In this document: piece after piece, positions 29,171 through 32,733 of the stretch | How the letters are laid out: each line of letters begins with the position of its first letter | Numbering within the stretch: the first letter of the stretch is position 1 | Assembly (NCBI GenBank): GCA_003605065.1 | Contig: QZJM01000009.1 | Location: forward strand, 1-36,222 | DNA: 36,222 nucleotides | Direction of reading: 5' to 3' | Source of the DNA: Dethiobacter sp. | Lineage (GTDB): Bacteria > Bacillota > Dethiobacteria > DTU022 > UBA8154 | Translations under genes and position numbers: made by a program | The notes under the pieces: generated by a model | Database searches by the model: none | Seen by the model: only the letters and a program-made list of their open reading frames with translations | Told to the model about the DNA's origin: nothing

Positions 29171-29222
29171 AGAGCTAGATAAATTGAGAAAATGTGGAAG
29201 GTTTTACAAAGGAGGCAGGCAT

Positions 29223-29474
29223 ATGGTACGCATGAGCGATCTGCGTGATAGGGATGTGATCAACGTCAATGACGGGAAAAGGCTGGGGGTTATCAGCGAT
29301 ATTGATCTGGATTTAGAAAGCGGAAAAATCAAGGCGATCATTTTACCGGGGACGGGCGGCTTTATGGGTGTAATCGGCAGGAAGAATGATTTGGCAATAT
29401 CCTGGGAAAAAATAAAGAAGATTGGTGTGGATACCATACTGGTGGATTATCCGGTTGAATCCGAAGGGGCCTGA
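29223..29474 (+). CDS. ylmC: PRC-barrel protein of the YlmC/YmxH sporulation family
   Basis: An 83-residue PRC-barrel protein. ATG at 29223 has AAAGGAGG about 8 nt upstream and starts MVRMSDLRDRDVINV. The sequence contains GKRLGVISDIDLDLESGKI and ends after VDTILVDYPVE, matching YlmC/YmxH in length and pattern. The family is nearly restricted to endospore formers and is linked to sporulation, but its molecular role is not known. YlmC and YmxH cannot be reliably separated here; position after sigG favours ylmC. Confidence 0.88.
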   Translation: MVRMSDLRDRDVINVNDGKRLGVISDIDLDLESGKIKAIILPGTGGFMGVIGRKNDLAISWEKIKKIGVDTILVDYPVESEGA

Positions 29475-29478
29475 AGCC

Positions 29479-29507
29479 TGGACATAATTTTGACGTTGTA
29501 ATATAAT
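29479..29507 (+). promoter_or_regulatory. Sigma-A-type promoter for nrdR
   Basis: TGGACA (29479-29484), a 17-nt spacer and a perfect TATAAT (29502-29507) make a good housekeeping promoter directly after the ylmC stop. No clear NrdR box pair is seen around it. Confidence 0.65.
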
Positions 29508-29553: not shown

Positions 29554-30021
29554 ATGAGATGCCCCTATTGTGGAGAATATGAGAGCAAGGTAGTTGATGC
29601 ACGTTCGTTTGATGAGGGTGATTCTATTCGCAGGCGTCGCGAGTGTTTGCAATGCAATAAACATTTTACAACTTTTGAAAAGGTAGAAGAAATCCCTCTT
29701 TTTGTTTTAAAAAGAGATGGAAGAAAACAGCTTTTTGATCGAAATAAAATACTGGAAGGCCTTGTCAGGGCCGGAGAAAAATGCCAGATTTCCATGCAAA
29801 CTTTTCAAAGCATAGTGGATGAAGCAGAAAGAGAATTGCGCTGTGGTGATGTTCAGGAGATATCTTCTGACTATATCGGGGCAAAAATTCTGGAAAAACT
29901 TTTACCCGTTGATGAAGTTGCCTATGTCCGGTATGTTTCTGTTTTTTATAGATACAGGGATATTGAAGAGTTTAAAAAAGAGCTCGATAAAGTTATTTCC
30001 TTACGTCAGAAAAAGAATTAA
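29554..30021 (+). CDS. nrdR: Transcriptional repressor NrdR
   Basis: Zinc-finger and ATP-cone repressor of ribonucleotide reductase genes. It has 155 residues, starting MRCPYCG. Zinc ligands C3, C6, C31 and C34 are all present, with the basic RRRREC stretch used in DNA binding. The ATP-cone (about 49-139) reads FVLKRDGRKQLFDRNKILEG and on to YVRYVSVFYRYRDIEEF. NrdR measures the ATP/dATP balance. The next gene also begins with an ATP-cone, so two nucleotide-sensing modules are adjacent, probably in one transcript. Confidence 0.97.
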   Translation: MRCPYCGEYESKVVDARSFDEGDSIRRRRECLQCNKHFTTFEKVEEIPLFVLKRDGRKQLFDRNKILEGLVRAGEKCQISMQTFQSIVDEAERELRCGDVQEISSDYIGAKILEKLLPVDEVAYVRYVSVFYRYRDIEEFKKELDKVISLRQKKN

Positions 30022-30073: not shown

Positions 30074-31912
30074 TTGACGACAGATGTTTTTCCTTTTAAG
30101 GAAATCAGGAAGAGAGATGGGAGAGTAGTACCATTTGATGCCGAAAAGATCACCCAGGCCATTTTTAAAGCTGCCAGGGCTGTAGGAGGGGAAAACTATT
30201 CACTGGCAGGTGAATTGACCAAAGAGGTCATTATTTATCTTAACGGGTATAAGTTGTCTGGTTTAATTCCTGCCGTAGAAGAAATTCAGGATACAGTGGA
30301 AAAAGTCCTAATTGAAAGAGGACATGCCCGTACGGCTAAGGCCTACATTTTGTACCGGGCGAAAAGGACCCGCATCAGAGAGGCCAAGTCGGAGTTAATG
30401 GATGTAGTCAAAGATATTTTAATGGAAGGAAACAGAAGGGAAGAAGAAGGTAATTTCTCACCTGCTGAAAAAATGCACCGCATCGCACTGGCTGCCAGTC
30501 AAAAATACTACCTGGATAATTTACTCCCGCCGGATATAGCTAATGCTCATCAGGGGGGGGGGGTTCATATACACAGCCTGGGGTATTATAGTAAAACTCT
30601 TGATTCCCTGCAAATAGACTTACAACCTTTGCTAAAAAATGAGTTTGCCTCAGAAAAATCACCTCCCGGGGATCTTTTATCAGCTCTTTTAAGGGTCGCT
30701 GCAATCGTTCAGAAAAACCAGAATGACATGTATGGTGAACAGGCTCTGCCCTTTTTTGACAGCGTTGTGGGGGAATTAATCCGCAGCTTTAAAAATAAAC
30801 CCGGCAATAGAGAACTTTCCAGAGGCTTAAAGGAGTTTCTTTCCTATATAGAGGTGCTTCCCAGTTCTATGGGTGGAAATATTTTACAATGCAGCCTGCA
30901 ATTGGGTCTGGACGTTACTGAAGAAGGAAGGGGCATAACCAGGGTTTTACTGGAGGAGATCAAGAAGCGGCAGTGGCCCAAAGTGATTTTTACAATCAAA
31001 AAAGGAGCCAATTTTCAGGAAGGAGATCCTAATTACGATTTATACAAATTCGCCCTCAAGTCAGCTATAAAAAACGGTAACCCTTCTTTTGCTTTTCTTG
31101 ATACTTCATATAATATCCCCTTCGGGACGAATATAAGTTATTTCAGCAGTGGCATGAGACTGGCTGAAAACAGGCATGGTATCCCGGGAGGGAAAAAAAG
31201 AGGCAATATAGCTACTTTAACAATAAACCTGCCGCGCCTGGCGCTTGGTTCCCTGGATCAGGAGTTGTTTTTTGTGGAACAGGACCGGCTTTTAAGGCTG
31301 GGGATACGCCAGTTATTGCACCGTTTTGAAGTGCTGACCTCTCTTAAGTGTAAAGATCTTCCCTTTTTAATGGGTGAAAAGCTTTATATGGGAAGTGAAA
31401 ACCTGTCCACGGGGGACAGTATTAAAGAGTCCCTTAAAAATGGCCTTATTACTATAGGTTTTACCGGCTTGCCGGAAGCTGTCCGCGTTTTGACAGAAGG
31501 ACAGCAAGAAAGGGAACAGGGGTACGGGTTGGCGGTAAAAATTGTGGAACACATGTCCAGGCGTGTCAAATCATTCGCCGAAGAATATGATCTTAATATT
31601 GAACTTTGTGGTGCCTTAAGCAACGGTAAATTGCAGGGCCTTGTCAATAAAGATCGGCAGGATTTCGGTTTTGTCAGTGGGGTTACTGATAAAGATTTTT
31701 ACAGTCCATGCTTCGTTCTTTTTCAGGAAGACGAGGGTCTGAAAAATAAGATTGCACTGGAAGGAGAGATACATCAATACTGCTCTGCCGGATATTCGTC
31801 CAAGATGGTGCTGCTTCCCGGAATGGACGTAGGGGGAGTGGAGGAGATAATATCTAAATTGGCTGGTGCCGGTATCGGTTATCTCAGTATAGCACCCCTC
31901 ATGAAGGAGTAA
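30074..31912 (+). CDS. ATP-cone/NrdD-like protein, probably a non-catalytic class III ribonucleotide reductase homologue
   Basis: The 612 residues begin with an ATP-cone (about 8-98, EIRKRDGRVVPFDAEKI to AYILYRAKR) and continue with an NrdD-like barrel: NAHQGGGVHIHSLGYY (157-172), LQLGLDVTEEGRGI (275-288), EGDPNYDLYKFAL (316-328) and RGNIATLTINLPRLAL (376-391). Residues required for catalysis are missing. The first active-site cysteine region (CCQIDL-like) reads DSLQIDL (177-183), the GCR motif with the second reads GMR (360-362), and the chain ends after GIGYLSIAPLMKE, before the Cys4 zinc site and the glycyl-radical RVCGY motif. pgeF begins 5 bp later, leaving no space for a lost tail. The frame is intact although it crosses a run of eleven G (30553-30563). 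I infer a nucleotide-binding pseudoenzyme, perhaps regulatory. It starts at TTG (30074), with AGAAAGGGTGG upstream. Confidence 0.8.
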   Translation: MTTDVFPFKEIRKRDGRVVPFDAEKITQAIFKAARAVGGENYSLAGELTKEVIIYLNGYKLSGLIPAVEEIQDTVEKVLIERGHARTAKAYILYRAKRTRIREAKSELMDVVKDILMEGNRREEEGNFSPAEKMHRIALAASQKYYLDNLLPPDIANAHQGGGVHIHSLGYYSKTLDSLQIDLQPLLKNEFASEKSPPGDLLSALLRVAAIVQKNQNDMYGEQALPFFDSVVGELIRSFKNKPGNRELSRGLKEFLSYIEVLPSSMGGNILQCSLQLGLDVTEEGRGITRVLLEEIKKRQWPKVIFTIKKGANFQEGDPNYDLYKFALKSAIKNGNPSFAFLDTSYNIPFGTNISYFSSGMRLAENRHGIPGGKKRGNIATLTINLPRLALGSLDQELFFVEQDRLLRLGIRQLLHRFEVLTSLKCKDLPFLMGEKLYMGSENLSTGDSIKESLKNGLITIGFTGLPEAVRVLTEGQQEREQGYGLAVKIVEHMSRRVKSFAEEYDLNIELCGALSNGKLQGLVNKDRQDFGFVSGVTDKDFYSPCFVLFQEDEGLKNKIALEGEIHQYCSAGYSSKMVLLPGMDVGGVEEIISKLAGAGIGYLSIAPLMKE

Positions 31913-31917
31913 TAAAA

Positions 31918-32733
31918 ATGAATGAAGCCCTGAGCTTAACCGAAAAAGATGGTATTTACTATTTGTTCTTCCCCCGCTGGGAAAAATCGGGTATGGTGGG
32001 CCATGGTTTTTCCACCCGCCTTGGTGGGATAAGTAAAGGACCATTCGCTTACCTTAACCTGGGACTAAAGGGGGGAGACAGTCCCGAAAACGTCAGCAAA
32101 AACCGGAAAAGCTTTCTGGGGATCTGGGGGAAACAGGAAGGGGATCTTCTTTACGGTGAGCAGGTTCACGGCAAAGAGGTTTTCCTGGTTGATAGAGACT
32201 TTTTAGATAAAGGCAGCAGGGAAATTCCGGCAACGGATGCACTTATCACCAAAGAACGGCAGGTCTTGCTGGGTGCCTTTTCGGCAGACTGTTTCCTGAC
32301 TTTTTTTCTGGACCCCGAAGTTCCGGCTATTGGGGTAGCTCATGCAGGGTGGCGAGGTACCTTAATGGGTATATTGGCCGGTGTAGTGGAGGCTATGAAT
32401 GAAAAATTTAGCAGCAAACCTGATGCTCTGGAGGTTTTATTGGCCCCTGCCATAGGACCCTGCTGCTATGAGGTTGGAAAAGAAGTTTTGGAATTATGTA
32501 ATGCGTCCCCGTGGAGCAGCGATACTGTTTTCTATCCCGGGATAAGACCGGGACATTCTTTTCTGGATTTACAAAAAACCAACTGCAACATCCTTCGTAA
32601 GGTGGGAATTAAACCTGCCAATATCATTACAAACGGATTTTGTACATGCTGTAACCAGGATCTCTTTTATTCCTACCGGGGTGCTAAAGGAAAAGCAACG
32701 GGAAGTCATCTGGGTATCATTTTTCTAAGGTGA
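31918..32733 (+). CDS. pgeF: Purine nucleoside phosphorylase of the YfiH/PgeF/LACC1 family (YlmD)
   Basis: This family acts on adenosine and inosine, and Escherichia coli PgeF also removes mis-incorporated serine from UDP-MurNAc. The 271 residues show the zinc ligands H84 (EQVHGKEV), C125 (FSADCF) and H142 (VAHAGWRGT), and the later GPCCYEVG and NGFCTCC motifs. In other members the SADC motif is usually followed by small residues and Pro; here it is SADCFLTFF. The start ATG lies 5 bp after the NrdD-like gene with AAGGAG upstream, so the two are co-transcribed. In Bacillus the same gene (ylmD) heads the ylm group. Confidence 0.93.
   Translation: MNEALSLTEKDGIYYLFFPRWEKSGMVGHGFSTRLGGISKGPFAYLNLGLKGGDSPENVSKNRKSFLGIWGKQEGDLLYGEQVHGKEVFLVDRDFLDKGSREIPATDALITKERQVLLGAFSADCFLTFFLDPEVPAIGVAHAGWRGTLMGILAGVVEAMNEKFSSKPDALEVLLAPAIGPCCYEVGKEVLELCNASPWSSDTVFYPGIRPGHSFLDLQKTNCNILRKVGIKPANIITNGFCTCCNQDLFYSYRGAKGKATGSHLGIIFLR

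Follow-up and report, generated by a model that had tools for sequence, protein, structure and literature searches.

A short NrdD homologue in relatives of Dethiobacter keeps its ATP-cone after losing the class III ribonucleotide reductase active site

We propose that, in the bacterial family of the window (the window being the whole 36,222-nucleotide stretch of Dethiobacter sp. contig QZJM01000009.1 analyzed here), the nrdD gene of an ancestral nrdR-nrdD-nrdG-pgeF cluster now encodes a pseudoenzyme that responds to ATP/dATP as a regulator and may control dNTP synthesis in trans. We give this reading a probability slightly above one half (about 0.55). The status of the short protein as a pseudoenzyme is well supported, as catalysis is lost while the protein is widely conserved and under purifying selection.

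The short gene (30074..31912, + strand) is an intact reading frame encoding a 612-residue NrdD homologue that is catalytically dead and lacks the glycyl-radical domain. It opens with a TTG start, preceded by AAAGGGTGG, and closes with a TAA stop. The local order is ylmC - nrdR - short gene - pgeF, all on the + strand: a ylmC-like PRC-barrel gene (29217..29474) is the conserved upstream neighbor, nrdR (29554..30021) is intact in the window with its zinc ribbon and ATP-cone (Pfam PF22811 and PF03477), and a pgeF-like gene (31918..32733; PF02578), the conserved downstream neighbor, begins 5 bp after the short gene, the spacing and clean frame being as the sequence-only reading had described them. 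A promoter-like TGGACA-17-TATAAT sequence (11/12) at window positions 29479-29507, between ylmC and nrdR, fits an nrdR-short-pgeF transcript; such sites are no commoner in this region than chance.

Pfam assigns an ATP-cone to residues 10-99 (30101..30370, + strand; PF03477, 78.4 bits) and an NRDD domain to residues 128-608 (PF13597, 254.8 bits against a cut-off of 26.2), and the motifs, cone, and barrel first picked out from the sequence are all present. These two domains are the only Pfam matches, with no zinc-ribbon DNA-binding domain of the NrdR type among them. The NRDD match runs from position 7 to 506 of a 562-position profile; the C-terminal end of the family is missing, and the protein scores under the curated cut-offs of all NCBIfam NrdD models that it matches (TIGR02487, 247.8 bits against 326.35; PRK07111, 443 against 764). 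An AlphaFold2 model (mean pLDDT 85.3, pTM 0.77) finds its closest PDB fold in P. copri NrdD (8p2c; E 3.4e-40, TM 0.77). The predicted fold is thus the NrdD fold, and the window protein belongs to NrdD both by sequence family and by its ten-stranded barrel.

Alignment of 18 complete short forms from the window's family with 24 full-length enzymes, with residue roles taken from P. copri NrdD (PMC11226230), reveals extensive loss of catalytic and substrate-site residues. The first-strand catalytic cysteine (P. copri Cys171), present in 24/24 full-length enzymes, is serine in 18/18 short forms (S178 in the window protein; 30605..30607, + strand). In the finger loop, the radical cysteine (P. copri Cys416) and the arginine that follows it occur in 24/24 full-length enzymes; the cysteine is found in 0/18 short forms and glycine stands at the arginine position in 18/18 (S359-G360; 31148..31153, + strand). 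Alteration of both cysteine regions had been noted from the sequence and holds at S178 and S359, but the pairing of GMR with GCR was one residue off, YMGCRTRV aligning with YFSSGMRL. The losses reach further than first noted. Both asparagines of the NxN substrate flap (24/24 full-length, 0/18 short) are gone from the connector at that site (residues 118-132; 30425..30469, + strand; RREEEGN against RENAN in full-length enzymes). Equivalents of the specificity-site Asn298 and of loop-2 Arg305 and Gln309 follow the same 24/24 to 0/18 pattern, and just 5/18 short forms have glutamate at the position of the substrate-contacting P. copri Glu581. The second glycine of GGQ, Gly in 24/24 full-length enzymes, is Glu in 17/18 short forms (E222; 30737..30739, + strand). 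Hand-counted equivalents of Asn167 and Lys171, ATP-bound core contacts in S. thermophilus NrdD (PMC12662201), are unconserved in the short forms and were set aside. As had also been recognized, the zinc Cys4 and glycyl-radical segments are missing from the window protein, whose C terminus (31880..31912, + strand) lies just behind the final barrel strand of the model (603-608). Chance is excluded because 18 complete relatives show the same losses, and the alignment demonstrates that radical ribonucleotide reduction by the known route is unavailable to the short form.

The ATP-cone has fared differently in that, as homology shows, the residues that would bind two ATP or dATP are retained. Residues K13, R14, D15, R17, Y94, and R98 of the window protein, together with R102 just past the cone, match the nucleotide-site residues of P. 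copri NrdD (PMC11226230); in P. copri numbering, Lys7, Arg8, Asp9, Arg11, Arg87, and Arg91 are kept in 18/18 short forms and Tyr83 in 17/18. Within-group pairwise identity in the cone is 0.78 for short forms versus 0.71 for full-length enzymes, and 0.41 versus 0.72 in the specificity-site region, which is relaxed in the short forms.

We searched 60 relatives. In the window's family (f1), a group that takes in public metagenome-assembled genomes labelled Dethiobacter and Syntrophomonadaceae, 22/23 genomes carry the short form, with lengths of about 610-630 aa and identities of 53-90%; three copies are partial, at or near contig ends, and the sole genome without it, G008, is 79% complete. Complete copies in this family carry no stops in frame. 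By the Nei-Gojobori method, the short protein as a whole has a dN/dS of 0.10-0.16 and its cone 0.00-0.11; the full-length orthologues have 0.10-0.15 and pgeF has 0.15-0.24. Purifying selection on the short form is strong, above all in the ATP-cone. The proposal that this is a maintained protein and not decay is borne out by these figures, and the absence from relatives with relaxed selection that was named as speaking against it was not seen. In sister families within the order, the homologue is full-length (about 680 aa, about 50% identity) and lies in loci arranged nrdR - nrdD - nrdG - pgeF, and the more distant loci of Desulfofundulus (L117) and Peptococcaceae (L115) read nrdR - nrdD - nrdG. 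The short gene therefore sits in the ordinary nrdD position and, judged by gene order, is the positional orthologue of the sister families' full-length nrdD; nrdG is missing from its locus.

Conversion of this kind occurred more than once. Genome G033, from the sister family f3, has a short-like frame of 659 aa that has lost its zinc/glycyl end and nrdG, with NCLQIDL changed to NSLQIDL, MGCRSRV to TGSGSRV, RENAN to RESAA, and ATPAEG to ATEAGG, and with the cone nucleotide-site residues retained. In trees it falls beside the full-length NrdD of G037, a genus-mate, and apart from f1 (support 89); a tree of slow regions supports the pairing with 100/98. Its D170G, C178S, G222E, and R360G changes yield the residues dominant in f1 at four active-site positions, replacements whose identity is suggestive, each needing one or two base changes and the comparison being post hoc. 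Comparing G033 with G037 gives a dN/dS of 0.175 for the protein and 0.064 for the cone; comparisons between full-length forms give about 0.08. Neither nrdR nor a second NrdD was detected in the G033 genome; class II NrdJ is present. Two further genus-mates (G063 and G064, genus g21) gave no match to nrdR or nrdD at the thresholds applied; G064 has a class II NrdJ and G063 a partial NrdJ match.

Degenerate copies occur in two other families. The 574-aa copy of G025 (family f4) lies beside nrdR and pgeF, joins f1 in the tree by a long branch, and shares the serine at the Cys171 position, the glutamate at position 222, and the retained cone residues. In the distant family f60, genomes G131 and G170 have copies of 608 and 602 aa directly after nrdR; at another place the contig also carries a full nrdD with nrdG in divergent orientation. 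The f60 copies retain the zinc cysteines and Gly-Gly-Tyr and have alanine at the first catalytic cysteine; in the radical loop Ser-Gly replaces Cys-Arg, as in G033. Between the two genomes the cones are 88% identical and the whole proteins 55%. In these loci (L204:4386-5675, L205:4283-5587) an HlyD-like gene directly follows the short gene and no pgeF-like gene does so within the fetched stretch, so pgeF adjacency is not universal. The first tree to include f60 joined it to f1 on long branches. A single origin for the two was rejected, as a slow-region tree without G025 separates them, with weak placement; because the position is unstable, f60 is counted only as a probable origin. Two independent conversions (f1 and G033) are thus shown, and a third, in f60, is probable. 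The three forms differ, and their functions need not match.

Catalysis in most f1 genomes is provided by a second NrdD and/or class II NrdJ, both of which turned up when the window's genome was searched for the full reductase that the sequence-only reading thought worth seeking. On contig C12, that genome encodes a complete NrdD that belongs to another subtype and has its own ATP-cone. This subtype is found in 19/23 f1 genomes and in G025, with none in the order's other families at E 1e-100, and class II NrdJ in 18/23 f1 genomes. No canonical NrdG (TIGR02491 above cut-off) was found in the 23 f1 genomes. A likely history would have the second NrdD gained and nrdG lost, with conversion of the resident nrdD thereafter. 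The 1192-aa NrdJ of the window's genome (L192:2217-5792, G000 C12, - strand) contains a LAGLIDADG-type intein inside its barrel, and similarly enlarged NrdJ frames occur in several f1 and f3 relatives. Inserts also enlarge the second NrdD in f1 (G004 C102, G008 C40, G011 C110, G015 C67) and the locus NrdD in f3 (G027 C77, G044 C1, G047 C123, G067 C26), giving frames of 885-1253 aa; these inserts are probably inteins, and their positions differ.

In active NrdD, dATP causes cone dimerization or enzyme tetramerization (PMC12662201, PMC11226230). We suggest that the short form likewise binds ATP/dATP and shifts its association state and, less certainly, that this switch may regulate another component of dNTP supply in trans. 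There would be two best candidates for the partner. One is class II NrdJ, which lacks a cone and gains appeal from G033, where a second NrdD was not detected; the other, possible in f1 and f60, is the second NrdD. We favor a regulator because the cone is better conserved than in the active enzyme while the specificity-site region is relaxed; because G033 converted independently and the degenerate f60 copies have a conserved cone; and because positional orthology, conservation in 22/23 genomes, low dN/dS, a cone-less NrdJ, and an NrdD-like predicted fold all point the same way. Against it, f1's second NrdD comes with a cone and has no obvious need for another in trans. We advance only tentatively the broader idea that an nrdR-linked NrdD turned at least twice, and probably three times, into a dead ATP/dATP sensor acting in trans on cone-less reductases, replacing or bypassing NrdR.

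A narrower form, in which the short protein is a trans-acting ATP-cone that restores dATP feedback to class II NrdJ, is rather unlikely. The inspected NrdJ proteins of f1 and f3 have no ATP-cone, the reductase complement of G033 would suit such a role, and relocation of a cone to class I NrdB offers a precedent (PMC5794259). However, f3 relatives with cone-less NrdJ have an ordinary full NrdD, and the cone is absent in many class II enzymes (PMC9669993). It is similarly doubtful that the cone is kept just for folding or assembly while a remodelled barrel binds another ligand or carries out a non-radical reaction. Residues 133-184 and 381-470 are conserved equally to or above the active enzyme and could serve a non-nucleotide role, and the fixed or nearly fixed G360, S178, and E222 suggest a defined new pocket; yet the strongest constraint falls on the nucleotide-contacting cone residues, and the f60 copies retain mainly the cone.

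The sequence-only reading had cast the short protein as a partner, decoy, or effector of NrdR, in a regulatory pair. This fits the adjacency of the two genes in the window and in f60 and the ATP-cones on both proteins, but we now consider it improbable, and as a general function it is largely refuted. The expected short, cysteine-less clade is conserved across f1; its place beside nrdR is not, as nrdR is intact in only 6/23 genomes, with a remnant in a seventh. In the window's genus, nrdR occurs in one of five genomes, the window's own; in G004, whose short protein is 90% identical to that of the window, ylmC lies directly before the short gene. Mapped onto a tree of the short forms, the presence of nrdR must change six times or more, and well-supported branches force three of these changes. 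This indicates that nrdR was lost about six times while the short protein persisted. In G005 (L018:1230-1391), a C-terminal remnant of nrdR just upstream of an intact short gene offers a snapshot of such loss. The independent G033 form also lacks nrdR. Adjacency is weak evidence for a new partnership because it is inherited from the ordinary nrdR-nrdD-nrdG-pgeF cluster, and a weak test, with a weak consensus, gave no convincing NrdR-box pairs upstream of nrdR/short, the second nrdD, or nrdJ.

A decaying relic on its way out is very improbable: the loss of catalytic parts and nrdG, and the G033 genus-mates with neither nrdD nor nrdR, would suit one, but in f1 the stop-free complete copies and a dN/dS near 0.1 over deep divergence reject it, the view being less excluded for the single G033 copy with its dN/dS of 0.175. 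Although split and rescue glycyl-radical domains occur in other systems, an active reductase completed in trans by such a domain has a negligible chance and is refuted, unless another residue substitutes, by the missing cysteines; the domain, named beforehand as grounds for doubt, was sought in all 23 f1 genomes and no conserved stand-alone copy was found, 16/23 lacking PF01228 and the other matches lying nearly all inside whole glycyl-radical enzymes, and canonical NrdG is missing too.

Work on reductase allostery has so far dealt with cones that control the enzyme carrying them. That a family keeps its cone on a dead reductase, and that such conversion recurs in another lineage with the same replacements in the active site, suggests a second, separable function of the NrdD scaffold, and nucleotide sensing in trans by a ribonucleotide reductase fold becomes testable. 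An annotation of NrdD based on domain matches may also name a protein that is incapable of ribonucleotide reduction.

Betaherpesviruses carry pseudoenzymes of the class I large subunit with a role in host interaction; there, too, the reductase fold is kept after loss of activity, from an unrelated origin. In the open-licence PMC papers searched, nothing relevant turned up on an NrdD or other ribonucleotide reductase pseudoenzyme or on a dead nrdD paralogue, and none of them described a class III pseudoenzyme. The short form resembles cone-bearing NrdD (P. copri 8p23/8p2c; S. thermophilus 9d3x/9dca) in its two-domain architecture, cone nucleotide residues, and barrel fold, and in operon position in relatives, but its catalytic cysteines, flap, specificity site, zinc site, and glycyl radical are gone, as is nrdG. 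With NrdR, an ATP-cone transcriptional repressor, it shares the cone and, in the window, the neighborhood; unlike NrdR, it has a barrel and no zinc-ribbon DNA-binding domain, and it persists after nrdR is lost. Regulatory dead enzymes and cones shifted between reductase subunits (PMC5794259) are already known kinds; the independent repeat of the dead-NrdD form in another lineage suggests a regulatory role that is new to the literature searched. In some class I reductases the ATP-cone has moved to NrdB (PMC5794259), likewise placing activity control off the catalytic subunit, although the subunit to which that cone is fused still works and generates the radical, whereas here the cone sits on a dead catalytic subunit. 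The trypanosome AdoMetDC prozyme, a catalytically dead paralogue that regulates its enzyme, is likewise a conserved enzyme copy without catalysis; it is a proven allosteric partner (PMC5201418), whereas the partner of the short form is a candidate that we infer.
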